The notes under the pieces were generated by a model. The model saw only the letters and a list, made by a program, of their open reading frames with translations. It ran no database searches and was not told the origin of the DNA. Below, piece after piece: positions 1-64,000 of a stretch of DNA of 64,000 nt. Each line of letters opens with the position of its first letter. Position 1 is the stretch's first letter. The stretch comes from Terramyces sp. JEL0728 (lineage: Eukaryota > Chytridiomycota > Chytridiomycetes > Rhizophydiales > Terramycetaceae), in assembly GCA_027603945.1 (NCBI GenBank), contig JADIIU010000022.1, positions 80,376-144,375 on the forward strand, written 5' to 3'. Both the position numbers and the translations under genes were made by a program.

Positions 1-98
1 AGCAGTAAGTTGTTATTGATTTTAGTGACCAATTTCACAAATTCTGAAACCAGCGCATCGAGTATATTGTAACTAACTCAGACATTAAAATTATTGAT

Positions 99-3000
99 AT
101 GGAGCAGAAAAGTGGAATGATATCAGTGTTGGAAGGGCTAAAGAACCTTGTCACAAGAAAGGATCAGGCGGAACTACTTAAGAGGGCAGATGAACGAGCA
201 GCACAGCAACTAGAGAAGAGGACGGTGAATGTTGGAGAAATAGTGCCAAATATAAAGATAGATTCTGTTGACGGCGAATTTGTCGATGTGTGGAAACTCT
301 CTGCGAAAAAATACATAATCCTCTTATTCTTTAGAGGAGCATGGTGCCAATTCTCAATGGTAAATATTATTCATTACAGACGCATTTGAAATCCATACAG
401 AAAGCGCTGGATATCCTTAATGAAGGAGACGTTGAGATCGTCGCAATCTCTGGCGAAACAAAAGAAAAGTTGCAGGCACTGACGATCGAACAAAAACTAA
501 AGTTTAAATTATGTTCCGATGAGGAATATGAAGTAACAAAAATGTTTGGATTAGAGTATTCTTGGAAGCCGGAAGAGATCAAAGCGTTAGAAGAAATCCT
601 TGGTATGAATTGGCAAGACTCGTACGGTGAAAGTTGCTCTTTAGCAGTACCAGCTGCATTCGTGGTGCAAAAGAAAACTTGCAAAATTATTTTTGCAGAT
701 ATTAACCCTGATTATTCCAAGCTAGCAGGGCCGAAAGACATTATTGAGGCTATTTGGAAGTCGAAAAATTCACAGAAAGACGAAAATTTCGCAGGAAGGA
801 TTTCGCCGAGCATTTCTTCACTCAAACGGGATGATAGTTTTTCAAGTTTGCTGAATTTCGATGTTGGTATGGCGGAGTCTAACCTAGATATCCAGATGAT
901 CGAGAGTGATTTTAGACAGAAAGTTGCGAATTTATCCGATCAGTTCAACAAAACGCTGATAAAATATCCAAATTATAACCAAATGATAGGAAATATGAAA
1001 ACTTTTATGAAAAACGCTATGCACAACAATAGAGTGCCAAATCTTGGAGATCAAGCTGCATTTTTCGTGTCTACCACCGTAGACGATGAATTTGTTGATA
1101 TAGAACAGGTACTGCAAAGCAAATATGTTATTCTGATTTTCATCTTTGGTTCATGGGCTCCATTCACACTTTTGCAACTAAAATCGATAAACAAAATGAT
1201 TGAAATATCAGGAAACGATGACATTGAGGTGGTTGTAGTTTGCAACGAGAACCATGCGTCGTTGCAGACAATGGTGGAAGACAATAATTTAACAATCAAA
1301 GTAGTTAGCGACAGTTCAAATCAGATAATCAACCAGTATGGATTAAAATATGAATGGAATAGCTCTGAAATCGAAACCATTAATGAGATTTATAATATTG
1401 ATTGGTACAGATACTATCACAATTCCAATATCACGACAATACCAGCCTTATATGTAATCCAGAAGAAAACCTTCCGAATAGTATTTTGTAGGTTTTTTGA
1501 TCCAGCCAAGATCCCCGGGCCAAAAGAATTGCTAGACGTCGTAAACTCAAAGAAAATATCCGTTACGACTCCTGGCCTGACAAAAAGGAACAGAGGCGCA
1601 TCAAACCTCAGTTTATCGAAACTTGGACTTACTACAAAAGACGCATGTATTTACTTTTTAAAATAGCCATGATTGAAATTGACAGAGATCATAAATATTT
1701 GTTGACTGCAGTGCTGGAAAAATACCGAATACTCATTTCAAACGACAATTCGAAAAAGAAAAGCAACGAAGTTATCGTGAGTGCAAACAAAAGGATCGAA
1801 AAGAATATTGACAGTCACAAGTCGGTATGTGTAGGAGATTTTCTCCCTCCGTTTAGTTTCAACTACAACTCACAAAAGATTAACATTGCATCCTTAAATC
1901 AGAACAAGAATCTGGTTCTCTTATTCTTTCGTGGAACGTTCTGTCAATATTCGATGGTTCAACTAAACTCGTTTCAGAAAGCGCTGAATGTGTTTGACGA
2001 AAGTGATGATATTGAAATAATTGCTCTAACAAGTGAAAAGAAAGAAAAATTCGAAGAGGAGGTAGAAAAACAAAAAATACCATTTAAAGTCGTCCATGAC
2101 TCGGCATTTGAAATATCCAAATTGTTTGGAATATCTCACGATTACACGGACGATGAAAAAAGAGCGCTTGAAGATTTGATTGGGATAAACTGGCAAGACA
2201 GATATGGATCCGCGAAAGCAAACTCTGTAAATGCGTCCTTCATGGTCCAAAAGAAAACCGGAAGAATTCTGTTTGCTCAAATAAATGCTGATTACGGAAA
2301 ACTTCCAGGGCCAAAAGAAATGCTGGATGTGCTGGCTAAATCTAAAGCAAAGGAATCGGCTATCAGCAATTTTATCCCCCTTCGCCAGTCGACCCTTATA
2401 GGAATACCTGCTATAGATAAAAGTAAATACCAATTAATGATAGAACTGCAAGCGATCGAGTCTGATCTAAAACTCGCGTTCAAATCAATTTCGCTAGGGT
2501 TCTCGCATATTGTCATTGGAAGTCCAAGCGATGAAGAAAGTTTAAATACCATTGAACAATCAAAAGCAAAAGCTGCAGCGGCATTGGCAGAAAAAAGGAA
2601 ATACAAAGTGGGAGAAGTTGCTCCTATGTTTAAAGTTGTTACAATCGCAAATGAAAATATTGACCTTGACAAGTTGGTAAAAACGAAAACAATAGTGCTA
2701 GTTTTCTTTAGAGGAACCTGGTGTGCGTATTGCTCGAATTATTTGAAATCGTTGCACAAAGTAGTCGACATATTCACAGACAACGATATCGAAATTATTG
2801 CTGTTTCAAGCGAGTCGTCGCAAAAACTAAAAAATTTCGCTAGTGAATTCAAAATCAATTACATAGTAGCGCATGATATCAATTTTAAAATCGCAAAGCT
2901 TTATGGGCTCGATTTTGAATTCCGAGATTCCGATGTAAAAGCACTGGAAGAACTTGTTGGAATGAATTGGAAACAGGCATACGGGGATTCACTAATCTTG

Positions 3001-3135
3001 AGCACTCCGGCAACATTTGTCATACAGAAAAGCACTGGGATTCTGATATATGCCAGCGAGAGCCCAGATTACACGGTGAGGCCAGGGCCAAGGGAAATAG
3101 TTGAAGCTATCCTAAATTCAAGAAAGCGTAAATAA
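99..3135 (+). CDS. four-domain peroxiredoxin-like (AhpC/TSA) protein
   Basis: Exons 99-359, 380-1646 and 1667-3135 join to 998 codons; both introns are 20 nt. The protein holds four tandem thioredoxin-fold domains of the AhpC/TSA peroxiredoxin-like type, near residues 44-225, 300-480, 560-740 and 820-995. Each ends with a PxxxFVxQKxT strand and a G-P-K/R-E helix. The expected active-site loop F-F-R-G-x-W-C-x-x-C is intact only in domain 4 (Cys862, Cys865). Domains 1 and 3 keep just the first cysteine (Cys83 in WCQFS, Cys602 in FCQYS), and domain 2 has none (Ala347 in WAPF). Family members normally reduce peroxides or act as thiol oxidoreductases. Here one domain looks catalytic and three look decayed or repurposed. 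No signal peptide or membrane segment is visible, so a cytosolic location is likely. Family assignment is firm; substrate and role are unknown. Confidence 0.85.
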
Positions 3136-4875: not shown

Positions 4876-6100
4876 ATGGCAATTGATGTTGATGAAATTA
4901 TATCTCAATGCTACAATAAGCAACTGATACCTGCACCGGTTATAAAGGAGCTGTGCGAAAAAGTAAAAGAGTTGTTGGTCCAGGAGAGTAATGTTCGCTC
5001 CGTAAAATCACCTTGCACAGTAGTCGGAGACGTACATGGGTAAATATTGCTGATAAAAGACAGTTTTTTGATCTACTGGAAATATTTAGGATCGGCGGAT
5101 ATGCACCAAATACCAATTATGTATTTCTCGGAGATTATGTAGATAGAGGACATCACTCAATTGAAGTTATTACCCTCCTTACTTGCTTGAAGCTTCGATA
5201 TCCGTCAAGAATTACACTAGTTAGAGGAAATCATGAGTCGAGAGCAGTTACAACCACATATGGGTTTTATACTGAATGCATGAGGAAATATGGCGATCCA
5301 CAAGGTAGAACAACTCTAACCAGTGTGGAACTATTTTACAGAATTATTTGATTACCTTGTGCTGGCGGTAGTTATAGACGATACAATAATAGCCATCCAT
5401 GGGGGGCTTAGTCCTTCTATTCACACTGTTGATCAGATAAAAGTTATAGGTACGCTGCACTAACATCAAGATCGGTTTAAAGAAATTCCACATGAAGGAC
5501 CAATGGCAGACTTAGTATGGTCAGATCCGGTGCCAGCCGAATTATTGGAAACAAACGGGCACTTTGCAGTGTCGCCAAGAGGTGCTGGCTACGTTTTTGG
5601 AAAAGAAGTAACTAGAAAGTTCCTTGAAATGAATCAACTTGGACATATTTGTAGGGCACATCAATTATGCATGGAAGGATACCAAGTTGGTTGATTTAAT
5701 CTAGATTTTATTTGATGACATGTTGTCAACTGTTTGGTCAGCACCAAACTATTGTTATCGTGCGGGTAATCTCGCCTCTATTTTGGAAATCAGCCCATCC
5801 CTAGAAAGATATTTCAATGTCTTTGGTCCCTGCCCAGTCCAAGACAGGGAAGCAAACGTACCATTGCAGCATGATCGACTGAAGGATTTGTTTGATACAG
5901 ATGGCTTGATTAAGAAGATGAACCAGATGAAAACAGTCGGGCAGGGGAGTGGACACTCCTTGTTGGGTGAAGAACCTGTAGATTCTAATGCGGTAATAGA
6001 TTCTAACTGTAGACCATTGATCGATATTTTACGTAATAAAGATTCTGCACTGAAAGGAAATTTCTTTGGTAACTTTTTGCCCCTTGCAATCAATTGTTAG
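4876..6100 (+). CDS. PPP6C: PP2A-like phosphatase catalytic subunit, PP6/SIT4 type
   Basis: Exons 4876-5039, 5060-5304, 5324-5449, 5471-5685 and 5705-6100 give 381 aa; introns are 20, 19, 21 and 19 nt. All metal and phosphate motifs of the PPP family are present: GDVHGQ, GDYVDRG, RGNHESR, the histidine in IHGGLSP and the RAHQ histidine. The stretch GYQILFDD then [14 protein letters not shown] is closest to PP6/SIT4 among PP2A, PP4 and PP6. PP6 with SAPS-domain partners works in cell-cycle entry and signalling in the cytoplasm. The C-terminus is odd. The usual short tail ending in YFL, which is carboxymethylated in PP2A-type enzymes, is missing. It is replaced by about 75 residues of unrelated sequence ending LAINC. 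Confidence 0.93.
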
Positions 6101-6682
6101 TTTATGCTTTGCATTCCTCACCTTTGGAAATGCAATCGCTGTACTTGTACGATTTGTCAGTGGTGAGAAACCTTTGCTGAATTATTCGTCCAACTGTTCA
6201 CTTGGTCCAGAACAAAAGAGACAAGCTACTTAAACAAGTGTTAGAATACCGGTTGTGGACCAGTTTTTACTTGATTTTCCTTGCGATCTCAAATCAAAAA
6301 CACGTTGATAACAGCTTCCCTAGTTCCACGCGAAATATAACGTCTTTGATTGCCGTCGTGAATTACTCTCAATACTTTGCAAAGTATTGAGAGCAGATGA
6401 ACTTGGAGTAGCAGAAAATCGCAATGAATTAATGGATACTGTTTTGGCTGATGAGTTTTCCGCAATTTCTTTGTGGTGTGAATGTTTAACATGCTGAGCA
6501 ATATCCTCTCCAATATTAAGAAATTCATATCTCTGCGATATTATCAAGGAAAGATTGATGTTTGTCTCGGTATAGAAACCCCAGCAATGTTGTCTAATAT
6601 ATTAAATCTTAATGGAATTGCAGCATTATATTTCAACTGCGAATCTGTTCAAATTTACGAGAGTGTAAACTTGACTCGCCAA
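6101..6682 (+). other. unresolved coding-like stretch between PP6 and the ARF GEF
   Basis: This 580-bp gap is too long for this genome and keeps an open, helical reading in several pieces. One path runs from about 6211 through a 20-nt intron at 6305-6324, then REL-LSIL and NRNELMDTVL, then a 23-nt intron (6476-6498). It then enters the frame that later codes for the Sec7 protein, passing GIETPAMLSNIL near 6580-6615. That last motif and NRNELM faintly recall the SAPS domain of PP6 regulatory subunits, which would be striking beside the PP6 gene. The similarity is judged by eye over short segments, and the first exon and start are not found. The stretch could be a separate small gene, a 5' extension of the next gene, or a decayed remnant. 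Confidence 0.35.
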
Positions 6683-9208
6683 ATGCAATCTCCAACCAAG
6701 CCATTACGCCCAAATTTCGCAAACGAGGATAATACAAATTATGCATTAACAAGAAGACACACCGATACAGATATACATGATAGCAACTCAGAGAAAAATA
6801 TAATGGATGTGGCAGGAAAGCAGGCAACTCAAGCATCTGGAAACAGTCTTGACTCCCGCTCGAGCGTTCCAGATTTTCAAAAAGATATAAACCGTAAAAG
6901 CGAGCGAGTAGAGAGGATTGCTTCGATTATACGGCAGCATAAAGAAGAGAATACAGATAAGGATACTGGATTAGTATCCATACCCCGCAGAAATACTTCA
7001 ACATTCAAAATCCCACAGTCAAAGGAGAGTGCAAAAGAAACAATATTGGCAATGAAGACGATAGCACTACCCCAAATAAAAAAAGAGAAACCGATTGAAA
7101 CTGGCGCGATTTACTCTGTTCTGGAAGGATTAAAAGTTGAAGATTCTGGAGATATGAATAAACCTCTTCCCGATTTGGTGGATGAAGGATGCAACCCTGC
7201 TGCGATATCTTATGGAGAAAGCTTGTATCACGGTACCGCGGAAAACTTTGAAATGGACAAAGTATCGGGAATAATAGGGAAAGGGTATCTTTTACTGATT
7301 CAAGTGGTGATTATAATAACTCTGTACTTATTGGTTATATGAAATGCTTTGATTTCAATGGGGTTACGATTGACAGCGCTTTTAGGTACAATACTGCTAA
7401 CAAGAAAACTATGTGAACACCTGGATTTGAATGGAGAAACTCAAGCGATAGATAGGATTCTGTACCAAGTGTCAAAACGATACTGGAAATGCAATCCGGA
7501 ATTTCATCAAGTGTACCGCAGTATAGGTAACTAGAGTCTCACAGCAGATATTGTATATGGCACGCTTTTTTCGGCAGTCCTTTTGAATACAGACTTGAAT
7601 ACCGTCAACGTATCCTCCAAAAACCACAAGAAAATGACTTCAAAAACGTTCCTTAAAAACACCTCGGATTTAATACTGGACATGATTGAAAAAGACGAAG
7701 AGATAAAGAGCGAGGTATCTTTCAATCCAGAATCATTCAAAAAATGGAAAAAGGAACTGGAAAATCTGCTTAAAGTATACTATTTTAATCCTAGGATATA
7801 TACAACTCAGTCAAAGAAAATCCAATTGTCAGAAATACTTCAATGCCGCCAATGATTAAAACCAGAATTTCGGAAGATGAGAAAAGCGGTGAAATCGTCC
7901 GTTCCAACTCCTCTTGGAGTGTGTCAACATCACTTTCTTCTGCGCTGGGTAATACACTCGAGAGAAATCAATCAAAGAAAGGAATGGGAAAGTCCCACTC
8001 TAATATCCTGGGAAAAGGGAATACCCAGCAAAAAGTATTGCTGGAAGGCGTGCTGATTCGAAAACATTTGCTAGAGTCGCATTTCGAAAGAGCTAGGAAC
8101 AGAAAGTGGTGTAAATATTGGTGTGTTATTAAATTACATAAAACAGAAGGGGTAGAACTGCATATGTACAGACTAAATCATATGCATACGATAGATAAAG
8201 AGTATTTGGATATGGAACTGAACCCACAGCTCGCGTTTGGAGAAGAATCAGAAGCACCGATTTGTACTCCCAAAGAGTTTATTTTGCCCGAAAGTGCTAG
8301 CAGGCCGGCAGATTCACCGTTGAATATCGGGGAACCGTACAATACATTTGATGAGAGTGTCCCTTCCCCCAACCATCCAATTTTTTCTTCTCACGATGTT
8401 GAATATAAAATCGCAAATGGAGAACCAAATCTACAGTCATTGATACATTCATTCGCTGCAACACATGAATATGGAGCCGCCAGGCCATATTGCTTTTCAG
8501 TTCACTTTGCAGACAACAATGTGTTTCTTTTTGAAGCGCCATCGAAATATTCTTGCGAAGCTTGGATAAATACCATAAATTACTGGGCCGCAAGGAAGAG
8601 TAAAGAGCCATTGGGGGGAGGACTGGGGAATACAGACTATGGCTGGTCGCAATTAGAAGCAGATATTAAAGCAGGACTAATCGTCGTATCTCCACCAGAC
8701 TATATCGAAGAATACAAGCCAATAGAAGAAAAAGGATCGTTTGAGCACGGTAGAAATCTCTCTGCAAACATGACATCGATACTAACAAAACATACCAGCT
8801 CAAGGAGTATGCTTAGCGATGCTGGATCTATTTCGCCAAATAAATCTGGAGCAAAGAAAAAATTTGCGAAATGGACGGAACAGAATATATCAGTGCGGCT
8901 AATCTCTATCAAAGAGCAAGTAATATTTACTAAAGCTAGGCGCAACAGCTGGATAGCATGATTAAACAACTTGATTTGATACGACAGGACATCTATGATC
9001 ATGAAGCACTCCACCAGCCTTTAAAGCAGCTGGTAATTAGCACTAATAGTAGTTTGGTGATAGCCATTCAACGTCTCAATTGGTATTTTCCAACTGGAGC
9101 CGGAAACACCATGCTCTAAAAATCGAACTTCAAAAGTACACTATATATACCAATGCATTACTCTCTCCAGATGTGTTTTTGTCTCCGCTGATGTCGCCAG
9201 GTTTGTAG
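6683..9208 (+). CDS. ARF guanine nucleotide exchange factor with Sec7 and PH domains
   Basis: Exons 6683-7284, 7305-7385, 7405-7526, 7545-7774, 7795-8919, 8940-9032 and 9053-9208 give about 802 aa. The intron at 7527 may end at 7544 (18 nt) or 7547 (21 nt); both keep frame. The first ~170 residues are low-complexity and Ser/Lys-rich. The Sec7 core follows: CFDFNGVTIDSAF, the catalytic-glutamate motif LNGETQAIDRIL with KRYWKCNP, and LLNTDLNTVN. A PH domain follows, starting at VLLEGVLIRK and ending at EAWINTINYWA. After it comes a coiled C-terminus (AQQLDSMIKQL, HHALKIELQKY). The order Sec7 then PH matches the EFA6/PSD and fungal Syt1-type GEFs that load GTP on ARF at membranes. The start is uncertain: the frame stays open upstream to 6482 and may join the preceding stretch. 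Confidence 0.85.
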
Positions 9209-9332: not shown

Positions 9333-9627
9333 TTATCCAGGACCGACTCTGGGGATATCATGGTGTTCTGAAAGCGAAGACAAGTACTTGTTGAAATCTG
9401 CTACTCGTTCTTTATGGCTCTTTTCTGCAGCCTTCTCAATCTTGTCTTCTAATCGCATCTTCTTGATCTTTTCATGTTTCAGCTCGGTTGCAGTCTTGTA
9501 AGGCACATACGGTTCACTTTCAATCTGTACCTCTTTTTCTTTCGCTTTGTCCTTCTTTTTCCTACATTAATCTGAATTACTTTTTGACTTTATCTCCCTT
9601 CAACTTTAGCCCACCACCAGTAAACAT
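9333..9627 (-). CDS. FAM32A: FAM32A-like nucleolar/spliceosome-associated protein
   Basis: Two exons, 9627-9581 and 9561-9333, with a 19-nt intron between them, give 91 aa. The N-terminus carries the LKLKGDKVKK lysine motif of the family. The C-terminus matches FAM32A closely: KAAEKSHKERVADFNKYL then LSEHHDIPRVGPG. In other eukaryotes FAM32A binds the catalytic spliceosome during exon ligation. In a genome whose introns are about 20 nt this is a gene of interest. The protein is slightly shorter than the human form (about 112 aa). The start codon sits 35 bp from the divergent mitochondrial uL22 start. Confidence 0.88.
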
Positions 9628-16400: not shown

Positions 16401-16424
16401 ATTTGTATTTTATAACGCGTCTCA

Positions 16425-19400
16425 ATGCTGTCAGAGCCAATTGGAGGAGAAGACGATAATAACTATATCCATTCACTGCCTGCCTTTGCGAATGAAACCA
16501 ACAAACAGCTGAGCAAGCATGTACGTGAATTTGACTGTAGATAAAAGAATTGGAATTTAACCTGAATGGACTATCAGCGACTGTAGAAGACAATCAAGGC
16601 CGTACAGAAGCGATAATTCAGCATATGAAGAATATACGGTCTGAATCTACACATACTCAAGGGCTGTATGATGCCAAGAACAGGCACATTGAAACCGAAG
16701 AACATTTGAAACAACTAGCAGAAAGAGAAGCAGGCAGAATGAAACTTGACATGAAGAGGATGGGAAATGAAGTTTCAATAATTAGTGACCATGTAGAACA
16801 GCATTAACTTAGCTAAATGTACTGCAGACAAATATCTATCGAGGCAATGAGCGGATTGAAGCTGTCCGGGCAGAATTCAAGCTGGAAACTGAAGAATTGA
16901 ATGAATGGCTGCGCGTCCAGGCAGAAAAGCAGGATGATAACCAGGCACTTTTGAAATACACCAAAGAGGACGAAGCCAAAGCCAAAGAACTTGGATTGGC
17001 AATTGAGAAGCTTATGAGCCAAGTAAATAAGAGAAAGGCCACGCTGGATGCAGAGGTGAGCTAAACTGATTATAGGTGACTGAAACTCAAGTTGCGCAAA
17101 TTGAACTGGAAAATACAACAGAAGAATTCAAACGATTACATCAAGAGAGACAAGAGCTCATTAACCAGTGGGAGATTGCAGTTAGCTCTATGAAGCAGCG
17201 TGATGACGATATCAACAATGCTCAAACCAACTATAGAAACCAAAAGGAGGAAATTCGAAGCATACAAGAAAAAATACGCGAACGGCAAGAGCTATATCAG
17301 CACCAACTGAATCACAATGTAGAAACTGAAAAAACCATTTCCTTGGCAGAGAGAAAGGTTGCGAAATTCAGAGAGGAGGAAACGGAAACCAATGTAAACC
17401 TTCAACAATTCAAAGGTTACAGTGACTAATATTAGACGAAGTAGAAGTCCTCAAGAACACTTTGAATAAATGTAACCACTACTAATCGTAGCCGCAACGG
17501 ATTTGGTGAATCGCAGATCAGAACTGAACAATTTAAAGGCAAACTTGAAAGAAAGACAAGAAAAATTGGATAAAGGGGAAAAGAACTATGCTGATATGCT
17601 TAAAAGAATGGCCAACTTGGATGACGAAACCGTCTCTTTAGGAACACGAGCCGAACAGGTACGAGCTTGCTAATCAAAAGTTACAAGAAATCTTGAACAG
17701 AGAAAAAGCAAAAGATAAAGAACTGGATAAACAAATCAAAGTATTGCGCGAAACCCAGTTCAAACAATCTCAGAATCTGTTCAAACTTCGCCAGGAGGAG
17801 AAAAACTTGCAGGCTGAAATTGTCGGCGGAGAAGCTGCTAGCAGAAATTTAAAGTCAAAAATCCATAAATTGGACCATGATACACTTAAACAGCGCGCAA
17901 TGTTGTATTCTATGGAATTTGGTATCCAACAACTGGAAAGGAAAATTAGAAGGCTGGAAGGAGATAGAACCGATGAAGAAAAGAATGAATTGCTTTCAAA
18001 GATTCAAACCTTAAATAATAAACTGGAAGAAGAGACCAACAAATACAACATGCTCAATGTGCAGTTGAAGAAATCACAAGAAGACTTAAGGCACAGCAGA
18101 AGACAACTGGAAATATTAGAAAAAACAAGAAATGATATTGCAACAAATATTAGAGAACTAAATCTTTATAACGAAAGCGCATCGCATCAACTCGCATCTA
18201 AAGTCAAGGAAAAAGAAAATTTGATGGTCGAGGAAAATATTTTAAGATTGGAACTTCGCCGTCTTAGAAGTTATTTACATGCTAGATCCGATGAAGTCTT
18301 CACTTTGGAGTCGAGACAGGTCCAGCTGCGCTTGGCTTTAGAAGAAAGAGGCAAAGAAATCGACATTCACAAGGATATGGTCAGAGTTCAGCTTAAAAAT
18401 GCGGAAGAAGAAAGACACTCTGCTGCTGCAGAGCTGCGAGACAGAGTTGGAAAAGTTGAAAAATTAAAGAAGCGTTACGAAATACTAATGACACAATTTG
18501 CACCCGAAGAAGGGGAGGAAGAGCACTCTCAAGCATTTTATGTAATAAAGGCAGCACAAAGACGAGAAGAATTGCAAAGAGAAGGTGATGAGCTGGATGC
18601 AAATATTAGAAGAGCCGAGAAAGAAATCAAGGCTCTAGAAAACACACTTAAAATGATGAACAATCGAAATGAAGAGTATCGAAATAAGTAAGGAATGGTT
18701 GACCTAGCCTTTTCAAAGCAGAGCTGGATGGAAAAGATGTGCAACATAAAGAAATGCTTGACGCGGTAACTAACCATTGATTGTAGGAATACAGCCAAGT
18801 CATGGACAGTTTCAAAAAGAAGCGTGCCGAAATCCAGGAATTGCAATTGGCACTGCAGGAGGTAGAACGAAAATACAATATGAATACTCAACAGGAAGCA
18901 AGCAAACTGCAAGAAGTCCAAGTTATGGAAGCAAAATGTGACGCAGTACAAGCAGAAATCGAAGAGCAAGGCAAAAAGAGAAATAGAGCGGTACAGTTTA
19001 TTCGAAAGGCATCAAAATTGCTTCGAAAAGAGCAACAAAGAAGTACAACCTCGCACGAAGAGCAAGATTTTTTGATCAGAGCATTGAAAGATATAGGAAC
19101 CATTGCATTAAATGATCTAAAACGACTCGCTGAAAAGCAACCAGACATTGCTGAAAAATTGCAGAGCTTGATGGCAATTCACAGTCTACAGCCGCCATCT
19201 AGGACTGTTTCTCGTGTCAGTTCAAGAGCATCAAGCGTTGCTGGCGAAACCCCTAATAGCATTTCGAGAGTGAGCTCACGATCAAACTCCAGAAATCAAT
19301 CGGTGGTAAATTCTCGAAGCAATTCAAGAAGCACCTCACGGCAAGAACTTCCTGTAGTATCGAACCAGTAAATTTTATTAATATGTAGAAATACTTGGGA

Positions 19401-19709
19401 ACAACCAGTAATAAGCAACGCGCCGTCCAGGGATGGATCTCAAGCTGATCCTTCAGAAAAACCCCCTCTGATGTCAACAACGAATTTGAATGGTATTGTG
19501 CGATTAACCAAGCCTCTATTGATTTTGCTAATGCAGGGGAGCGAGGCGGCACTTTCTCAAGAACCACTCCAGCTAAAGGTAGCAAACCTGCATCAAAGGA
19601 GAAACAGGAGAGAGGTCCAATCACTGGATCTGGCCGTATTAAGCAAAGCACAAGGCCAAGTTCTGCGGGAAGCAACAGTTCTAAAGGGAGTAGACAGTCT
19701 GCGAAATAA
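16425..19709 (+). CDS. CCDC39: coiled-coil axonemal ruler protein CCDC39 (FAP59)
   Basis: Eleven exons: 16425-16520, 16541-16792, 16813-17055, 17076-17415, 17436-17471, 17492-17658, 17681-18687, 18708-18765, 18787-19367, 19389-19492 and 19513-19709. Introns are 20-22 nt and the product is 1026 aa. It aligns end to end with CCDC39. Landmarks are HLKQLAEREAGRMK, FKRLHQERQELINQWE, LKQRAMLYSMEFGIQQLERK and YEILMTQFAPEEGEEE then YVIKAAQRREELQREGDEL. The tail is Ser/Arg-rich. With CCDC40, CCDC39 forms the 96-nm ruler that places radial spokes and inner dynein arms on axonemal doublets. Its presence implies a motile flagellum. A stop in frame at 19369 falls inside the tenth intron; the true stop is 19707-19709, nine bases from the PTRHD1 stop on the other strand. 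Confidence 0.92.
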
Positions 19710-19718
19710 AATATTCTT

Positions 19719-20094
19719 TTATTTAAATAGACTGCACTTTTTCAATAAAGGTCTGATGTCATCTGGTTCATACGGCTTGGTTACCAGACATGAGAGTGTG
19801 TTCTCTGGCATTTCTACCCATCTTACAAAATCAATCTTGTTTTCCTGCAGCGATGTAGACAGCGTTTCAAGCTGGCTGGCATTTTTCAGCTCCAGCACGA
19901 CTTTGTGCATGTTATCCATGTCTTCCATGTATCTGATCACTGCTTCATCGTTCCTTTTTTCCCAGAGCATCTTTGAAACTCCATGGCATGCTTGTCCGAT
20001 CATACTACCCTGTGACCATCCAGCCATCTGAATAAGTCCGCCTGCTTACCTTCAACAAGTCCTTCCGTAGTATAATGTACACTGTCAGAGCCAT
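19719..20094 (-). CDS. PTRHD1: putative peptidyl-tRNA hydrolase PTRHD1
   Basis: Exon 1 (20094-20050) and exon 2 (20027-19719) flank a 22-nt intron and give 117 aa. The protein matches PTRHD1 over its length: YIILRKDLL, SMIGQACHGVSKML, MHKVVLELKNASQLETLS, ENKIDFVRWVEMPENTLSC and LLKKCSLFK. The fold is that of the Pth2 peptidyl-tRNA hydrolases, which release peptides from tRNA after ribosome drop-off. PTRHD1 itself has unclear activity. The length equals the minimal core, with no membrane anchor or targeting sequence, so it is probably cytosolic. Confidence 0.88.
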
Positions 20095-23448: not shown

Positions 23449-24565
23449 TTATTTTTCGTTTCCAACAACAGCATGCGATTTCCATTCGTTACCAACAGCT
23501 AGATTTAACTTGGCATATTACCTTTCCACAATCGTAGAGTACCATCGTCGCCTGTTGAAGACAGTATGGTCCCTGTAACGTTCCAATCTACTCTCCAAAC
23601 ATCCGATTGATGGTCATTAAAGTCTCCAACTAGTTCAACATTAAACATATTCTTTTGCTAAATTAATTCGCCCGTACATTCTGCCTTTTGATTGGCGTTA
23701 ATTGGAATATCCTGACATGGCCATCGCTACAAGCGGTTGCAATAAGCTGAAAACTTCTACTTTTAGGACAGGCTACCTCCCCATATGTGGTGCCCAAGCA
23801 ACGTCTCTAATAATTCCGCCATGTCCTGGTAAAGTTTCATATGATTGCCAATGGTTGTTTGCATCAACTCTGAAAACCTTGGCTATATTATCTCTTCCGC
23901 ATCCAATAACCAACATTGCCGGGAGATATTTTGATGGACACCACGCTAAACAGAATTGCTCCTCTCCCTCCTTTGTACTGGAGTTTGTGATTTCAAAATC
24001 GTCCTGCATAAAGAATAATTACTGTTAAAACCCAGTTTTGTACATTCATTGGATCCTGCGCTTCATATATTCTCAATACAGCATCAGCAGAACTTGCAGC
24101 CTGCATTAATTTCAAAATACAATTTTCAAGCCCAAATGGTTTGGTGCAAACTGAACATCCTGGACTGTTCCTTTACTGTGTCCAAGTTTCGCTCTGTCTG
24201 TCCATCGTCTCCCGCTATTTCGCTGTTCTGAATAAAATCAGCAGTACCACTTTCCAGCTCTTCCCAAATCTTTATTGTACGATCAAACGAACAACTGCAA
24301 ATCAATTGGCCATATTCAGGATGTGCCCAATCTAACTTTAGTATTACTGAATCATGCGCTTTCCAGGTATCTATCAACTGCCATTTCCCATCCAGCAAAT
24401 CCCAAACTTTGATTTTTTGATCAGACGAGAGTTAGTGATTTATTACTGAACAAGACTACATTAATATCAACTTACTGCCATTCTGGTTCCGTAAAAATTG
24501 TACGATAAATCATGGATTAAATCTTCATGTCCTGCTTCAAATTCTGACAAAACTTCGAGCACCAT
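23449..24565 (-). CDS. SEH1: nucleoporin SEH1 (WD-repeat protein of the Nup107-160/Nup84 and SEA complexes)
   Basis: Nine exons on the minus strand: 24565-24476, 24455-24447, 24425-24248, 24227-24121, 24100-24023, 24003-23777, 23756-23678, 23657-23522 and 23498-23449, giving 317 aa. The match to SEH1 is full length: GHEDLIHDLSYNFYGTRMA, SSDQKIKVWD, WAHPEYGQLICSCSFDRTIK, QDVQFAPNHLGLKI, AVLRIYEAQDPMN, VAWAPHMGR and SDVWRVDWNVTGTILSSTGD. SEH1 is a seven-bladed propeller that joins the nuclear-pore Y complex and the SEA/GATOR2 complex. Exon 2 is only nine bases (SCS), and the intron after it ends in CG rather than AG. Everything downstream keeps frame only if that 21-nt segment is removed. Confidence 0.92.
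24426..24446 (-). other. 21-nt intron with non-canonical 3' end (GT...CG) in SEH1
   Basis: The segment begins GTAATA and has a CTAAC branch-like motif, as its neighbours do, but its last two bases are CG. Removing it restores the SEH1 family sequence CSSDQKIKVWD; keeping it puts TAA in frame. Sliding the boundaries by one or two bases gives no GT-AG pair. Either an unusual acceptor is used, or one base is wrong in the assembly. Confidence 0.7.
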
Positions 24566-41485: not shown

Positions 41486-42175
41486 TTATTGGCGATACCA
41501 CATGACGGTAGCTCTTTCACGTCTGATTTTCTTTTGTAATTGTAGCACACCGTACAACAATGCTTCTGAATATAAAATCCTATTTACCTGCAGTTGGTGG
41601 GCATCCTGGCACATAGATATCCACTGGAACGATACGATCGCAACCTCTCACAACAGCATAGGAATAATGGTAATAACCACCGCCATTAGCGCACGAACCC
41701 ATAGAAATTACCCACCTTGGATCTGGCATCTGATCGTATCTATTTTTAATAGCCAATTACACTTTTCTTAATGCTGGTGCCATTTTGTTTGTCAAAGTTC
41801 CAGCTACAATCATAACATCAGCCTGACGCGGTGTTGCTCTAAACACAATACCAATTCTGTCCTGGTCATATCTCGCTGCAGCCATGTGCATCATTTCTAC
41901 TGCACAGCAGGCCAACCCAAAGGTTAATGGCCACATTGATGAAGTACGAACATAATTTACTATACTGTCAATAGTTGTCAGAGCAAATTCTGAAATTAGT
42001 TTCGAGTACCTGCTGCATTGTTTATTGGCTTTGGAAGATTGAATGGGTTGACTGGTTGTGGTTTCGCATCTCGGGTGTCAAATGACGAAAGTTCCTTGTC
42101 ATTTTTTATAAGTCTCATCATTGAACGACATTGGTATTGTGGTTTTATCAACTGAAATGGAACTCTTCTAATCAT
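41486..42175 (-). CDS. NDUFS7: NADH:ubiquinone oxidoreductase subunit NDUFS7 (PSST, NuoB-type)
   Basis: Exons 42175-42010, 41989-41761, 41739-41588 and 41565-41486 give 208 aa; introns are 20, 21 and 22 nt. The N-terminus ([12 protein letters not shown]) is a likely mitochondrial presequence. The conserved core contains the four ligands of cluster N2: the tandem cysteines in [13 protein letters not shown] in [11 protein letters not shown] and [11 protein letters not shown]. This subunit passes electrons to ubiquinone, so a true complex I is present. That argues against lineages that have lost complex I, such as Rozella or microsporidia. The stop lies 82 bp from the eIF3f start. Confidence 0.94.
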
Positions 42176-45079: not shown

Positions 45080-48000
45080 TTACTTTTCGTCGTCGTCATC
45101 ATCGCTGGATGCTTCCTTTGGTTCCACTTCCAAGCTCTTATCATACAGCTCATCTTCATTCATTATAGAGTTTTGTTCTTCCCATCCAACCGGGGCTCCT
45201 CTAGTATCTCCCAGCTTCCTCATGAATTCTTGTATCTGAGGAACTTGAGCGAAATTGAATGGCGTCTGTTGGAATTTCTGAATTTCTTTGATCAAGAAAT
45301 ACACCTTTCTCCGTTTATCAAAGTTGATAAAGTGCGAATCAGGCAAGAAATCCGGGTTGCCCAGTTCGCAGAAAGTCAGATCAGTCAAAAAGACTCCCAA
45401 GAATGGAATAGCCGGTGGTACCATTTCTTTCAAGCACTTTCTGTAGTTTGCATATTGATACTTTGGCGACACCACTTCTTGTAGTGCTTTGTATTCTTCG
45501 CTAAGTTTTGGGAATTTATCCTCAAGCGCTCCCCAAGTCTTGTGCAATCTCCCTACTGGTCCCATGGTTAAGCCAGCAACGATTGTTGTGACAGCCGTAA
45601 GGTTTTTCAGCTCAAGGCATTGCTAATTAAAGATCAAGTACTTGGGCAAGGGTTACAAAATATTTCAGACAGTTTAATCTGGCTTTCAAAGTATCGTTGT
45701 TTACTATACACGTTGCGATCCAAAAAGTAAACTAAATCAGCATTGCATTACATCATTCGTGTGTCTAATCATTTTTGAAATGTCGGAATTTGGCGAACCT
45801 GGAATGTGTCTTTTGCATTGAGCCGGCTTGTTTTGCTTATTTAACGCAGCTTCCTTTTTGTAATGGCTTTCCCAAATTTGGTCAAGACATTCATAGGCTT
45901 GAACTTTGCTAAATAATTCAAACTCGACAAGAGTCAATTGTCTTGCCATCTCTAAAGGATCGATTTCCAAGAACGCTCGGGCATCAGTTTGAAGGGCAAC
46001 TAACGGGTCATATCCAAACCGGGCACCTCCAAGGATTGGCTTTGGGAAATTCTTTTCCCTCTCTGGATTGACTGTCACTGGTTGGACAACAGCAGTCGAC
46101 TTTTCCAATTCTTTTTCCAACGTTTCTAATATCTGGACTGCCATATGTTCGAAATCCAAGGCTACCTTTTTGTTTATAAAGTCTCTAAATCTCAAGATCA
46201 GAAATTCGTTATCAACAAAGTCTTCTTCAAAGTGGTTTTGAATCCAGTACAGCAGCACATGACAGACTTTTAGTCTTACTTGAACGACCTTCTTGTCCAG
46301 ATATATTTCAAACATTCGCTGGTTTAAACCATAGGGCGGTGTGATTTCATATCGCTTAAACAAATGATCCAGTATCTCAGCACTCGTCGAGAATGAATGG
46401 TGGGTCATAATGAAAGCTGAGGCAAATTGTTCATCTAAATTAGAAATAGATTACCAGCGGCTGGATTGTGACTGGACAATACTTCGACCAATTTGGCCAA
46501 TCTTCCTCCTTTTACTTTTTTGAACGAGCCAGATTCATCATACACAATTCCGTCAACTGGGTCTTGTAATAGCTCTAGCTCTTCAACATTTAATTGACTG
46601 ATCTGTTTCTTGAAGATTGGTGCAGTTTCGCTTATGACCTGCGATTCCCACATTTGGAACATTTGCTTGACTCGTTCATTTGCCAGACACTCTTTCTTCC
46701 AAGCGTCTCTCTTTCTCCTTTCTTCACTTCCAATGTGTCGTAATCGGACTGTCGATTCCTTGGCAAGCACCACGAGTCTCTTGACAGCAATGACACAAGG
46801 AATAGTGCTTTGCAACATTTCAGTTGCTGCGTTTGGCGGTGGCCAAGGAGCGGATGCAATTTTACCTCTTGCCATAATAACTTTGGCAGAGTTCTTTACA
46901 TCTTCGATTGCTTGCTTGAAAAACGGTTTGATTGGAGCAGGATATTCCGATACGTCTAATTTTACCCCTGAAGATTCCAGTCTTTGCGCATCAGTTTCTT
47001 CAATCATTGCATCGTCTGAAAAGTCTTTTAAAACTTCAAAGTTTAAAATTTCTTCCATAATTGTGTCAGCTTTAGCGTGTACAGTGGAAGTTGCTTTGAT
47101 AAACTCTTCTGTTAAATGCTGATCGTGGGCTTGCTTTAATTCGCTGACAGATCCCGCGAACTGTTTAAGGAGCGTATCGAGAGAAGCAAAGAACTCGGCA
47201 TCTGCATTTTTCTCATCAGAATTCAGTACATCTTGACTTGATTGTCTTGATCCGAGGTCATACTTCTTTGACATTTCTTCAATCAATTTAAGATCGTTTT
47301 GTCGTTTGTATTCGCTATAGCTCAGACCGCCTTTCAAACTGGAATCTTTTTCTTTCTCCACAGGTTCCTCTTCAGTTTTGCTTTCTTCAAATGGGGTAAA
47401 CTAACGTTAATATATGTTTACGTTGACTTCAAACTTTTTATCGGATTTTACAAAATACCCCAAAGTATTTGCAAGCAACACCAGCTCCCTGCAGTGTGTT
47501 GCCAAACTAGCTGCTTCTCGTATCATCTCAGAAACAGCATCTGGTGGCGGCCAAACTCCAATCGCCATTCTAGTCGAGAGCATCAGCTGTTTTGGGAATT
47601 CAGAAGATATAATTCTACTCAGCTCTTTGATTTTTGATTTCACTGCAGTGTCGCAAAAAGTCTCTGGCTTGGTGCCGAAACCAATTGTCTTTTTATCCAT
47701 ATTTTCTATTGCTCGAACTATTTCTGCAGAACAGTGGATAGTTTTTGCTGCAATTGCAATATAATGATGCTTGATATTCTTGTTTGCTGCCATCACCATT
47801 TGCACTATACATTGGAATACTTCTATCCACAATCCGTCCAGCTCTGTGCCATGGTCTGGCATATGCTCAGCTAGAGCCAATACTTCGTCTGCATTATTTC
47901 CCATTATTTTCTGTTGTTAACGTTTATTACTTCTAGATTCATTCCTTGTCGATAGCCAGTGTTTCTTTTTTTATTCATGGAAGACTCCCTCAAGCGAGAC

Positions 48001-49503
48001 GGTGGAGCAGTTTCTTGCGGTGCTGAGGTTAATTTGGATACATCAACCCCTGCCCTAGATGATAGCAGTGAGCTAATTTCATTTACTATATCGCTTTCTT
48101 CAGAGGTAAAGTAGGTCAGTTTGTCCTGTAAACTCTGTCTTCTAAGCTGTGAAGCAGACATGGATGTACTGATTGCCACTGGCAGCTCCTTTTTCTGAGG
48201 TAATACATCGGCACCACTTCCAATCCATGCATTTCGATCTTGCCCAACTCTTTTCAAATATAATATTCCCCGAGTTAGCCAGTAGTCAACATCAGGATCA
48301 ACATAAGCTTTGTTTTGTAATAACAATTGCACTGCTTGTTTTCTGCGTGACCAGGCTGCAACCATTATAGCAGACCTTCCCTTTCCAGGTCCAACCCTTA
48401 AATTGACATCACATTTTTCTTGGATTAAATATTGGATGATAGAATTATACCCAGAATTAACAGCGGCTATTAATGGAGTCATTAGTCCTTTTGGAGGTGC
48501 AAGTTTTTCGTTTTTGAATTTCAGTACAAGGCCGTCAACACTTGCTCCAGCCGCTCTTAGGATTTTAACAACTCTAAATTTTCCTCCTAATGCTGCCCAC
48601 ACTAGGGCCGTATTGCCGCAGTTGTCGTGTGTATCTACATTGCAGCCTCTTTTTAGGATTTCTTCGACAAGAGTCAAGTGTCCTTTGTACGCGGCTTTCA
48701 TCAAAATGGTCACGCCTTCTTCATCCGAGCTTTCAATTGATTCTGGTCGCAAGACAGCGCACAATTGTTGTTCGTATCCCATATAAGCAGCATCTGTCAG
48801 AGCCATAATCTTTAGTTCCAATGACTGCACCAGCATTTCTCTACCAACGACATCTACTGGTTCTGATGCAGCGGTTTTGGAAGTTTTGACAATGAATTGC
48901 CCAGACAAAGCTTGGAAATTTAGCGCGGGATCTTGAGATTTCACTCTCTCTTCCACATTTGCATCATCCTTCTTTTTAACCAGTGATTGTAATTTCTTTC
49001 CATCTTCTTGTATAGCTCCACATTGAATTAAGGTACTGGCAATTGCATTGAACCCCATTAGGTGCGCTATTGATAATGGTGTCACTCCTCCTTTGTTTGC
49101 TATATTGGGATCGGCACCTTTGAGCAGTAAGAGACAAGTCATTGGCTGGGATTACTAAATATTTACGTGGTCATTTTGAGATGCTGTCAAATGCAGCGGG
49201 ACATTGCCGTTCACATCAATAGGACTGTTGACTGAATTAAAAATATTCTGCGATTTCTTCTGACAGTAGCCCCTTACATTATCAATATTTCCTTCCTTTT
49301 TTAATACGAATTTACTTTACATAACTCTATCATCTTCTTGCATCTTTTATCCTCCTCATCAGGCGATTGGGGGTATTTTACCTTGTCCAAATCCAATGCT
49401 ACAGTTGGAGATATATTGGGCTTTGGAGGTCTCTATTAGCTGATTAATACCCTGCGTCTCTCTTTGTCGTTTTTACAAAATTCCACTTTGTCGTTTTGTC
49501 CAT
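45080..49503 (-). CDS. Ras guanine nucleotide exchange factor with N-terminal ankyrin repeats
   Basis: Nine exons: 49503-49451, 49430-49316, 49295-49167, 49145-47931, 47910-47422, 47400-46455, 46434-45752, 45731-45642 and 45622-45080; introns are 19-21 nt. The product is 1420 aa. Ankyrin repeats fill residues ~60-400 (DVNGNVPLHLTASQNDHP, NIANKGGVTPLSIAHLMG, EEGVTILMKAAYKGHLTLVE, NCGNTALVWAALGGKFRVVK). A helical middle contains two related copies of WPPPDAVSEM / WPPPNAATEM. The RasGEF N motif begins near FIMTHHSFSTSAEILDHL. The CDC25 catalytic domain follows (PLEMARQLTLVEFELFSKV, ATCIVNNDTLKARLNCLKYF, LTAVTTIVAGLTMGPVGRL, AIPFLGVFLTDLTF). It should load GTP on a Ras-like GTPase. The tail is acidic (SSDDDDDEK). 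Confidence 0.92.
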
Positions 49504-50640: not shown

Positions 50641-52070
50641 ATGACAGACCTCGATCTTTCGAAATTAACACCGCTCTCGCCAGAAGTGATTTCCAGACAA
50701 GCTACCATCAACATTGGTATACGCAACCTTACGTAGGTACAATTGGACATGTAGCTCACGGGAAATCGACAGTTGTAAAAGCAATTTCAGGAGTACAAAC
50801 AGTCCGTTTCAAAAACGAATTGGAGAGAAATATTACAATCAGATTAGGTTATGCAAATGCTAAAATTTTTAAATGTGATTATGAAGCGTGCCCTAGACCT
50901 GGATGCTATCGGTCATTTAAATCTGACAAGGAAGAAGGATTCCCTTGCGAAAGGGTCGGATGTATGGGAAGAATGAAGCTGGTTCGGTATTCATAGAATT
51001 AACAGCAGCCACGTTTCTTTTGTCGATTGTCCTGGCCACGATATTTTGATGGCAACCATGTTAAACGGGGCAGCTGTGATGGATGCAGCGCTTTTATTGA
51101 TTGCAGGAAATGAGATTTGTCCACAGCCACAAACTTCGGAACATTTGGCAGCTATTGAAATTATGAGATTAAAGCACATCATCATCTTGCAAAACAAAAT
51201 CGATTTGGTCAAGGAGGAAGCAGCTAAAGCTCACCACGAATCGATTTTACAATTCGTACAGGGTACTATTGCCGATCATGCACCAATTATTCCAATATCA
51301 GCCCAACTGAAATACAACATTGATGCAGTCAACGAATATATCGTAAAGAAGATTCCAATTCCAGCCAGAGATTTCACTTCCAAGCCAAGATTGATTGTTA
51401 TTCGTTCATTCGATGTCAACAAGCCTGGTGCAGAAATCCACGAATTGAAAGGAGGTGTAGCCGGCGGTTCTATCTTGTCTGGTGTGTTGAAATTGGGAGA
51501 TGAGATTGAAGTCCGTCCTGGTGTAGTGAGCAAAGACTCTGAAGGAAGAACTATATGCAGAGTCATCTTTTCAAGAGTAGAAACTTTGTATACCGAACAG
51601 AACGATTTGAAATTTGCAGTTCCTGGAGGGCTTATCGGTAATTTTAAATTGATGCCAGGTGTTGGTACCAGAATCGACCCAACTATTTGTAGATCCGATA
51701 GATTGGTTGGCCAAGTGTTGGGTGCAGTTGGAACACTCCCAAAAATTTATACAGAATTGGAAATCAACTATTTCCTTTTACGTCAATTACTAGGTGTAAA
51801 AACAGAAGACAAGAAACAAACCAAAGTTCAAAAATTGGCAAAGAACGAAGTACTCATGGTAAATATTGGTTCTACCACTACCGGCGGCCGTGTATTGTCC
51901 GTGAAAGCAGATTTAGCAAAGATCATTCTTACTTCACCGGCATGTACAGAAGTTGGAGAGCGTATTGCACTTTCTAGACGTATCGACAAGCACTGGAGGT
52001 GATTATTGTTAATTTTAGATTAATCGGCTGGGGTAAAATCAAGAGAGGTGTTTCCATTGATCCCATTTAA
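50641..52070 (+). CDS. EIF2S3: translation initiation factor eIF2 gamma subunit
   Basis: Exons 50641-50716, 50737-50986, 51006-51998 and 52019-52070 give 456 aa; introns are 20, 19 and 20 nt. G-domain motifs are G1 [12 protein letters not shown], the zinc knuckle with cysteines in [11 protein letters not shown] and CERVGC, G3 VDCPGHD, and G4 [10 protein letters not shown]. Domain II and III landmarks include [20 protein letters not shown] and [17 protein letters not shown]. The protein binds GTP and Met-tRNAi in the ternary complex. Its last 17 residues come from the final 52-nt exon; reading through the last intron gives a false stop right after HWR. Confidence 0.95.
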
Positions 52071-62110: not shown

Positions 62111-62160
62111 TTTGAATTTTAAACTTTTTTTTCTGTTAAAAATGAAACTGTAGAATTTCT

Positions 62161-64000
62161 TTATTTCTTGTAATTGAGTCTGAATGAGGGGCCGCCAAGT
62201 TCAACTCTCTTATTCCAAATGACTGTTTGCCAATAAGTATGGTATAGCTTTTCATAGTTCCAATCCATCGATCTGAATTTATGGTATGTTTCTTCCAATA
62301 GCTGCCCGGTTACATGAGTAAAATCATCGACAACCAACACTGGCAAGTCTTTAAAGATTGGATCCAGCTGGGATGATTTCACAATTGGATAAGTGCCAAG
62401 GAATAAAGCTTCGTATGTTCTGTAGCAGTCGATAGCAGCTCCAGGGGGCGAAACTACAAACCTTGCTTTCCTAATAATGTCAAATATATCACGAAAAGTG
62501 AAATCTGTGCTGACTCTCTTGTAGAAACAATATGAACTGCCACCAGATTTAGCGAATTCTTCTCCGCAGAAATAACTCCAGGCTTTTTCTCTTTCTTTAC
62601 TGTTGGTACTATTTCTAAAATTTACTACCACTGAATTTTCGAATGGCTTCCATGGCGATGTCCCACCTTCTATTCTGTTCATGACTGGCCCATAGGTTTG
62701 AGCATATTCGTGGACTCTTTCCCGCGCTTTTATCCATTGATTCACTCCCAAAGGTATGCAAGTGATCCAGTCCCACTCCGCAGCATCTGGCCTACAATGC
62801 TGAGCAAACCAGTGTGCAATCATGGGAGGTCTTTTAGGTTTACCAGGCAATTTTTTCAAAAAAGTTCTAATTCCAAAGTACGGATTGGAACTATCACCAT
62901 CACCGGAAATAACAATTACAGGAACTTTTAGTTTTGGCATGATCTTTTGAGCAAACTCTAAAGTTCTCCAGGAATCTACATAAATCGTTGTGTAAGGATG
63001 CAGACAATCTAGGAAATCCTCCAATGCATTATCGAATTTTTCTGGAACGGGCATATTTCTATAAGTCAATTCACCAAATCGTTTCATTCCAATTTGACTT
63101 ATGCGATCTGTAAAAGCAAGGTCTTTTGGTTTAGGAATGGTGGTTGGGTAGAAGTGTGAGGTTTTCGTAGCACAGGTTCCTTCAATATATGCATTTGGTT
63201 TCTGGACTGGAGTTGCTGGGCTTTCAAGTTTGGAGTGGTACTTGATGTAGTAACCAGGACCGCCTAGTTCAATTCTTTTCTGCCAAATAAGATTTTGCCA
63301 GTAGCTGTGATATAGCTTTTCAAACTTCCATTGCTTTCCTCTGAATTCGTAGTACTTTTCCTCCAGTAATTTTGCAGTAACTTTAGTCAAGTCTTTCACA
63401 ATCAAGACTGGCAAATCTTGAAAGATTGGATCCAACACCGTGGATTGCACAATTGGAAAAGAGCCTAACAGCAATGCTTCATACGTTCTGTAGCAGTCAA
63501 TCGCTTCGCCTGGAGGTGAAACCACCCATCTTGACTTGCGAATAGCGTCAAATACATCAAAGAACGTATAGTCCTTATCTACCGCTTTGAAGAAACAGGA
63601 AGCACTTCCACCAGTATTTTTGAATCCTTCTCCGCAGAAATAGTCCCACACAGGTTTTCTAAATACCTTCTTTTTGGTAATTCCAAAACTAACAAGCACA
63701 GAGTTTTCCTGTGGTTTCCATTCCGGGATTCCACCTTCCATCGGATTCATCAAGTGCCCATAAGTTTGAGCATACGAATGAAGGGTTTCTCTCGTTTGCA
63801 GCCACTGATTGATCCCCAAAGGAATGCAAGTAATCCAGTCGTATTTTGCAGCATCTGGTCGACAATGCTGTGCAAACCAATGTGCTATTATCGGCTTTCT
63901 AACACCAGGCTCTGGCAGATACTTTTTAAATCTTTGAATGTCAATTCCAGGATTTGAAGTATCACCATCGCCTGTAATGAGAATCACCGGGACCGTTAGT
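62161..64000 (-). CDS. tandem exostosin-like glycosyltransferase (5' end outside window)
   Basis: The frame runs from the stop at 62161 to the right edge without interruption, so at least 613 residues are coded here and the start lies outside. Two copies of one ~290-residue domain follow each other at clearly high identity. Paired landmarks are ITGDGDTSNP / ISGDGDSSNP, IAHWFAQHCRPDAA (both), YDWITCIPLGINQW / WDWITCIPLGVNQW, SPPGEAIDCYRTYEALLLG / SPPGAAIDCYRTYEALFLG and DLPVLIVKDLT / DLPVLVVDDFT. The SPPG-x-AIDCYRTYEA block is the nucleotide-sugar side of exostosin (GT47)-like enzymes. Substrate unknown. No signal or membrane anchor is visible in the part present, but the N-terminus is missing. 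Confidence 0.7.
   Translation of the reverse strand, partial: LTVPVILITGDGDTSNPGIDIQRFKKYLPEPGVRKPIIAHWFAQHCRPDAAKYDWITCIPLGINQWLQTRETLHSYAQTYGHLMNPMEGGIPEWKPQENSVLVSFGITKKKVFRKPVWDYFCGEGFKNTGGSASCFFKAVDKDYTFFDVFDAIRKSRWVVSPPGEAIDCYRTYEALLLGSFPIVQSTVLDPIFQDLPVLIVKDLTKVTAKLLEEKYYEFRGKQWKFEKLYHSYWQNLIWQKRIELGGPGYYIKYHSKLESPATPVQKPNAYIEGTCATKTSHFYPTTIPKPKDLAFTDRISQIGMKRFGELTYRNMPVPEKFDNALEDFLDCLHPYTTIYVDSWRTLEFAQKIMPKLKVPVIVISGDGDSSNPYFGIRTFLKKLPGKPKRPPMIAHWFAQHCRPDAAEWDWITCIPLGVNQWIKARERVHEYAQTYGPVMNRIEGGTSPWKPFENSVVVNFRNSTNSKEREKAWSYFCGEEFAKSGGSSYCFYKRVSTDFTFRDIFDIIRKARFVVSPPGAAIDCYRTYEALFLGTYPIVKSSQLDPIFKDLPVLVVDDFTHVTGQLLEETYHKFRSMDWNYEKLYHTYWQTVIWNKRVELGGPSFRLNYKK

Follow-up and report, generated by a model that had tools for sequence, protein, structure and literature searches.

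Uniform ultra-short spliceosomal introns are a known kind of intron. The chlorarachniophyte nucleomorph is reported to have many introns per genome within a narrow range of 18-21 nucleotides (nt) (PMC10245619), and those of Stentor coeruleus measure 15-16 nt (PMC9505925). Mikrocytid introns are 16-17 nt long, with 224 introns in Mikrocytos mackini and 17-19 spliceosome proteins identified (PMC10245619). Introns of Paramecium and Nyctotherus are around 25 bp (PMC5014332), and microsporidia, which are relatives of fungi, have few and relatively short introns (PMC10245619). Here, we analyzed a stretch of 64,000 nt (hereafter the window) from Terramyces sp. JEL0728 (assembly GCA_027603945.1, contig JADIIU010000022.1, positions 80,376 to 144,375, forward strand), for which an initial annotation made from the letters alone had reported spliceosomal introns of about 20 nt, close to the shortest class known and surprising in a flagellated, fungal-type organism. 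The first appraisal is right, the published extremes being the Stentor, mikrocytid and nucleomorph introns listed above. The flagellated, fungal-type owner is confirmed too: Terramyces is a chytrid (Rhizophydiales, Terramycetaceae), with which a flagellar CCDC39 gene and a fungal Zn2Cys6 factor (Pfam E 1.6e-5) encoded in the window agree. The genus is soil-living and saprotrophic. No report of introns of about 20 nt in Terramyces or in any other chytrid was among the matches listed in the open-licence literature, which lacks most subscription papers; this literature did not mention JEL0728 either, and the available parts of PMC9698843, PMC13391722 and PMC9138132 hold nothing on such introns.

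Introns were predicted with a gene finder written for this analysis and applied to 264 kb, i.e. the window and twenty 10-kb samples (L002-L021, positions 20001-30000 of contigs 1-20) of an assembly of 15,016,339 bases in 231 contigs. At its weakest setting, the finder used GT..AG ends only, with lengths of 12-120 nt at equal cost and no motif; the final models were trained on the calls of this setting, with intron length limited to 40 nt. The final set comprises 386 introns in 151 models, 117 of which carry at least one intron. Lengths range from 15 to 39 nt, with 376 introns at 18-26 nt, 356 at 19-22 nt and 149 at the mode of exactly 20 nt; nearly all therefore cluster, to within a few nt, around a single length of less than 25 nt. 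The window contributes 106 introns in 34 models, 104 of them at 18-26 nt and 44 at the mode of 20 nt, in close agreement with the first count of about 105 introns in some 35 genes, all but three at 18-26 nt with a mode at 20. The remaining 280 introns come from the samples of the other contigs, all 20 of which contain introns (6-32 per 10 kb), as expected from the genome-wide use that had been claimed. Extrapolation from the density of 1.46 introns per kb gives about 22,000 introns in the genome, false calls included. Judging from their sequences, they very probably belong to the ordinary major class (U2-type) of spliceosomal introns and have been reduced to a fixed frame close to the minimum.

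Of the five dinucleotide pairs compared, GT..AG alone shows the length peak. Over the 264 kb, the flat-prior run with GT..AG made 75 calls, of which 36 fall at 19-21 nt and the others are scattered, and the control pairs GA..AG, GT..AC, CT..AC and TG..GA gave 71, 66, 55 and 62 calls without any peak near 20 nt. Since the control pairs yield 55-71 calls, roughly one in two raw GT..AG calls is background noise, the signal being the peak. This specificity, together with the narrow length range, upholds both the spliceosomal type and the near-uniform length of about 20 nt proposed at the outset. Moreover, the branch motif YTRAY, which was never requested, is present in 33 of the 39 prior-free calls at 18-22 nt versus 8 of the 36 at other lengths. 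Spans of 19-22 nt of the form GT[AG]..YTRAY..AG number 152, versus about 73 expected from 20 dinucleotide shuffles. When matrices derived from the other 20 contigs were applied to the window with a flat length prior of 14-120 nt, 93 calls were obtained: 60 at 19-22 nt, three at 18, 23 and 26 nt and 30 scattered over 39-120 nt. Sixty of these 93 calls belong to the final window set of 106. Stop codons occur in 70 of the 98 in-frame introns versus 61 expected under permuted phases (P 0.002); as this excess is modest and 28 in-frame introns have no stop, we do not lean on it.

The anatomy of the 386 introns is equally regular and corresponds to the motifs first described (GT, mostly GTA, then a branch motif and AG). 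The donor is GTA in 345 of them and follows an A-rich exon end (consensus MAG|GTA, with a frequency of G at -1 of 0.47), and the intron bases are AT-rich and T-biased. A best YTNAY-like branch site was found in 367 introns, a strict YTRAY being the best site in 276, and 19 have none. Among the 367 introns with a motif, the branch A is base 14 or 15 in 301 and lies 5-6 nt from the intron end in 317. The 3' ends are TAG (233), CAG (100), AAG (46) and GAG (7). In the 259 introns of 19-22 nt that have a strict YTRAY, T makes up 0.39-0.50 of positions -9 to -5 from the branch A, which means that a pyrimidine-rich stretch lies upstream of the branch.

The junctions were also compared with solved proteins. 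On phmmer alignments read by eye, 13 of 15 junctions are clean, and the other two are at most 3 residues away from a gap of one residue. The PP2A-type phosphatase catalytic subunit (w03, 4876..6036, + strand; introns 5040-5059, 5305-5323, 5450-5470, 5686-5704 and 5993-6012, of 20, 19, 21, 19 and 20 nt) has four gap-free junctions out of four against the solved subunit, the fifth being outside the alignment. The four junctions of eIF2 gamma (w28, 50641..52070, + strand; introns 50717-50736, 50987-51008, 51638-51658 and 51999-52018, of 20, 22, 21 and 20 nt) are all gap-free against solved eIF2 subunit 3 (28zu_E, E 6.4e-234, with a query that included the upstream gene w27). In the complex I subunit NDUFS7 (w23, 41486..42175, - strand; introns 41990-42009, 41740-41760 and 41566-41587, of 20, 21 and 22 nt), two of three junctions are clean and the third adjoins a gap of one residue in the N-terminal part, which is variable. 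In an ACAD11-like acyl-CoA dehydrogenase (w21, 38945..40430, - strand; introns 39952-39970, 39728-39746, 39549-39568 and 39253-39273, of 19, 19, 20 and 21 nt), three of four are clean and one is 3 residues from a one-residue gap.

Three further genes, with 23 introns in total, were compared with the NCBI proteins of the strain and of other chytrids, agreement with NCBI being judged on protein alignments and not on DNA borders. An ankyrin-RasGEF protein (w26, g25 in the first models; 45080..49503, - strand) is interrupted by introns 49431-49450, 49296-49315, 49146-49166, 47911-47930, 47401-47421, 46435-46454, 45732-45751 and 45623-45641 (20, 20, 21, 20, 21, 20, 20 and 19 nt). Its spliced product is 98% identical to NCBI HDV01_003333 of Terramyces sp. 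JEL0728 over 91% of the query. Seven of its eight junctions are gap-free against Boothiomyces, with a 7-residue insert at the second, and the first falls in a region that is variable in other chytrids. The Sec7/PH protein (w04, 6482..9208, + strand; introns 7285-7304, 7386-7404, 7527-7547, 7775-7794, 8920-8939 and 9033-9052, of 20, 19, 21, 20, 20 and 20 nt) has six gap-free junctions out of six against Globomyces pollinis-pini. The flagellar CCDC39 gene (w10, 16425..20031, + strand; Pfam CCDC39 E 3.5e-131 with a query cut to 816 residues), whose junctions were compared with ten other proteins besides the NCBI protein of the strain itself, has introns 16521-16540, 16793-16812, 17056-17075, 17416-17435, 17472-17491, 17659-17680, 18688-18707, 18766-18786 and 19368-19388, and its model is doubtful past about residue 926. 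It includes a micro-exon unit (17416..17491, + strand) made of a 20-nt intron, a 36-nt micro-exon encoding 12 residues (DEVEVLKNTLNK region) and a second 20-nt intron.

In each of these three genes, the NCBI model has lost a conserved exon located between two tiny introns. The NCBI protein corresponding to the ankyrin-RasGEF gene drops a conserved 30-residue exon between the last two introns. The 12-residue exon of CCDC39 is missing from the NCBI proteins of Terramyces and Boothiomyces and kept in Globomyces, Batrachochytrium, Spizellomyces and Kappamyces. In the Sec7/PH gene, the first two introns enclose 27 residues that are absent from the NCBI proteins of Terramyces and Kappamyces and kept in Globomyces pollinis-pini and Batrachochytrium. 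Part of the introns described here is thus already implied by the strain's NCBI protein models, and the practical weight of the finding is that, in the three genes checked, these models miss conserved exons of 30, 12 and 27 residues. The Terramyces CCDC39 protein of NCBI (1241 aa; window 15440-20031, + strand) also has the upstream RING-type gene w09 joined to its N-terminus, and the Boothiomyces CCDC39 protein has similar extra N-terminal stretches.

The long introns (38-120 nt) of the first trained models were rejected, because they swallow real exons in the genes of Seh1 and of a chitin synthase, and the limit of 40 nt was adopted for this reason. In Seh1, the first model skipped about 31 residues that are conserved in solved Seh1. 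Read by eye, the N-terminal part of this gene (24426..24475, - strand) contains a 20-nt intron (24456-24475) followed by a probable 21-nt intron (24426-24446). The latter would end with CG instead of AG, with CTAAC at the usual place, and is the one probable GT..CG exception; it would be either a real variant or a sequencing error. The chitin synthase with a myosin-like motor (w16, family recognized by eye; 26745..32136, - strand) has introns 31761-31780, 28546-28567, 28196-28219 and 27270-27291 (20, 22, 24 and 22 nt), the third of which measured 120 nt in the first model and 24 nt once long introns were disallowed. All three length outliers that were inspected (two first-model introns of 120 nt and one of 32 nt from the final set) proved to be model errors.

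The genome encodes the U2 small nuclear RNA (snRNA; 140 bits), with the standard branch-pairing region GUGUAGUA / GUGUAGUAUCU, as well as Prp8 (part of the gene was read), U2AF65, U2AF35, SF1, Slu7 and Prp18. Besides two RRMs and a UHM, U2AF65 (L025 422-1822, + strand) has a ULM-like stretch recognized by eye; it matches the solved protein 6tr0_A with E 9.1e-62. In a comparison with 6tr0_A only, RNP1 of RRM1 reads KEHCHVEF versus KNFAFLEF, and RNP1 of RRM2 is close or kept; the divergent RRM1 motif may be related to a weak binding of polypyrimidine. Tiny introns also interrupt the U2AF35 gene, one of 18 nt and one of 19 nt in its N-terminal part and two of 19 nt in the rest, and SF1 has its helix-hairpin, KH domain and zinc knuckles. 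It is plausible that such introns constrain U2AF and branch recognition, as had been proposed, and the U2AF65, U2AF35 and SF1 genes look complete. Some candidate snRNA genes were rejected. Weak U6 matches in L023 and L024 (contigs C199 and C111) are near-identical stretches on two contigs that lack the U6 core. Four ATACTTACCTG sites considered as U1 5' ends have no Rfam U1 match and are unlike U1, and two of them read as coding by eye.

Among the described systems, the chlorarachniophyte nucleomorph resembles Terramyces by the length of its introns (about 20 nt), their narrow range and their large number. However, a nucleomorph is the remnant nucleus of an endosymbiont with a very reduced genome, whereas the Terramyces introns belong to a main genome of 15 Mb that has kept many splicing factors. 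Mikrocytids share the narrow uniform length but are parasites with few introns and a strongly reduced spliceosome, and Paramecium and Nyctotherus likewise have only ultra-short introns, which are slightly longer and belong to ciliates. Stentor and Terramyces are alike in their GT..AG ends, AT-richness, fixed branch A, 5-nt tail and presence of U2AF1/2 and SF1. In the 15-nt introns of Stentor, the branch A is base 10 and the tail is 5 nt (PMC9505925). The loop is 10-11 nt in Stentor versus mostly 14-15 nt in Terramyces, i.e. 4-5 nt longer, and the branch region has no strong consensus in Stentor, in contrast to the clear YTRAY of Terramyces. Such a comparison makes the tail look like a harder limit than the loop. 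Furthermore, the Stentor study lists Slu7 and Prp18 among the factors that were not found, whereas both were found in Terramyces. For the selected factors considered, Terramyces therefore has neither the loss reported for Stentor nor the reduction of mikrocytids, and tiny introns do not require the loss of Slu7 and Prp18. The extremes found described belong to ciliates, parasites and remnant nuclei, in which the shortness could be put down to an unusual or reduced machinery. Introns of about 20 nt throughout a chytrid with U2AF, SF1, Slu7 and Prp18 would demonstrate that a loss of standard factors is not necessary, and these introns offer a testable minimum for the spacing between branch and acceptor.

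If these are major-class introns in a near-minimal frame, each intron would be recognized as a single unit by intron definition, with the ordinary major spliceosome assembling across it. SF1 and U2 would take the branch site and U2AF35 the AG. The 5-6 nt between the branch and the AG leave no room for a polypyrimidine tract, so U2AF65 would have to act without a tract or bind weakly, use the T-rich stretch upstream of the branch, or be replaced. Catalysis would then produce a lariat loop of about 14 nt and a tail of 5-6 nt. Deletion pressure may have shortened the introns of this Rhizophydiales clade until the tail and the loop reached a working minimum. Relatives carry inserts at places where Terramyces has introns: 7 residues (21 nt) in Boothiomyces macroporosus and in Boothiomyces sp. 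JEL0866, in one gene each, 9 residues (27 nt) in Kappamyces sp. JEL0680 and 10 residues (30 nt) in Globomyces sp. JEL0801. The last species has a second insert of 11 residues (33 nt) about 15 residues from the nearest Terramyces intron, and Globomyces pollinis-pini has neither of the two Globomyces inserts. These in-frame inserts in NCBI proteins look like kept introns. We consider it an even call whether the Rhizophydiales hold a graded series (about 20-21 nt in Terramyces and Boothiomyces, 27 nt in Kappamyces and 30-33 nt in Globomyces) that ends in a frame of 14 + 5 nt, spliced with U2AF, SF1, Slu7 and Prp18 kept and with the pyrimidine-rich stretch upstream of the branch inside the loop. 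If the relatives do have introns of 21, 27 and 30-33 nt, this would be a series in which intron shrinkage can be followed, and the 5-nt tail shared with Stentor would mark a physical minimum of the spliceosome, although the loop still differs (10 versus 14 nt).

Several observations weigh against the reading as shrunken major-class introns or limit what is known of the relatives. The intron set was predicted from genomic sequence alone, and about 30 of the window calls obtained with held-out matrices exceed 38 nt. Synonymously redrawn codons still give 46 calls in 145 transcripts, versus 386 in the 151 real models, hence roughly one call in eight could be false. Three internal exons of zero length, some very short ones and a doubtful 15-nt intron inside the SF1 model are local errors. 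The intron sizes of the relatives were back-inferred from protein inserts and not from DNA, and the series consists of five inserts. Of the three snRNAs looked for (U1, U2 and U6), U1 and U6 were not found with an Rfam model, a pattern and, for U6, a BLAST search with human U6 (no positive control was available for U1), which leaves the completeness of the machinery undemonstrated; an assembly gap, divergence or a split gene may account for this. Finally, the NCBI protein models of the strain agree with only 12 of the 23 introns that were checked. Among the other 11, six are merged in three pairs, three precede the annotated start, one disappears because the upstream gene is fused to the model and one has a different border.

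One alternative is that the introns are of normal length (70-120 nt) and that the 20-nt gaps are modelling artefacts, an intron, a short exon and an intron being read as one. The skipping of such a stretch by the NCBI Terramyces proteins in all three genes checked and the 120-nt introns of our first Seh1 and chitin synthase models would fit this view. However, the three skipped stretches are conserved in other chytrids, which refutes it for these cases, and the Seh1 stretch is conserved in solved Seh1. As the 12 agreeing NCBI introns are also tiny and the prior-free length distribution has no second peak, we regard such artefacts as highly improbable. It is still harder to believe that the segments are unspliced and represent translational bypass sites, frameshifts, pseudogene lesions or assembly errors. 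They are indeed known from genomic sequence only, and 284 of the 386 would shift the frame if retained, but random errors would not carry GT..AG ends, a branch motif and a fixed geometry in hundreds of cases, with borders coinciding with part of the NCBI models and with the inserts of relatives.

U12-type (minor) introns have no polypyrimidine tract and a TTAAC-like branch site close to the AG, with the consensus donor [AG]TATCC and branch CCTTAAC. The TTAAY branch, the short tail and the lack of room for a downstream tract in Terramyces recall this class. Nevertheless, the [AG]TATCC donor occurs in 1 of the 386 introns and CCTTAA in 2, and the genome has a U2 snRNA whose branch-pairing region is standard. 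A U12-type class was therefore rejected on its donor and branch motifs, U12 snRNA not having been searched for, and its chances appear negligible. A rather unlikely alternative concerns the 3' end only: a factor like SPF45/RBM17 bound to SF3b155 could replace U2AF65, as reported in a study of human short introns with truncated polypyrimidine tracts (PMC8363638). This human precedent, the tail of 5-6 nt with no room for a tract and the divergent RNP1 of U2AF65 RRM1 are in its favor, whereas U2AF65 keeps its ULM-like N-terminal stretch (by eye), RRM2 and UHM, and U2AF35 is present.

Other features of the window were also noted. The initial annotation had pointed to a FAM32A gene, a family that it tied to late spliceosome steps. 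A FAM32A-like protein is encoded there (w05, 9333..9627, - strand, with one 19-nt intron at 9562-9580): it matches PDB chain 6qdv_G with E 2.7e-10, but its score with the Pfam FAM32A model does not reach the cut-off (E 0.074). In the protein w12 (22530-23402, - strand), the 13 residues RFGVEAVEKPLIN occur twice in tandem as a perfect in-frame repeat. Lastly, positions 1-3135 (+ strand) form one long reading with, by eye, about four tandem peroxiredoxin/thioredoxin-like repeats.

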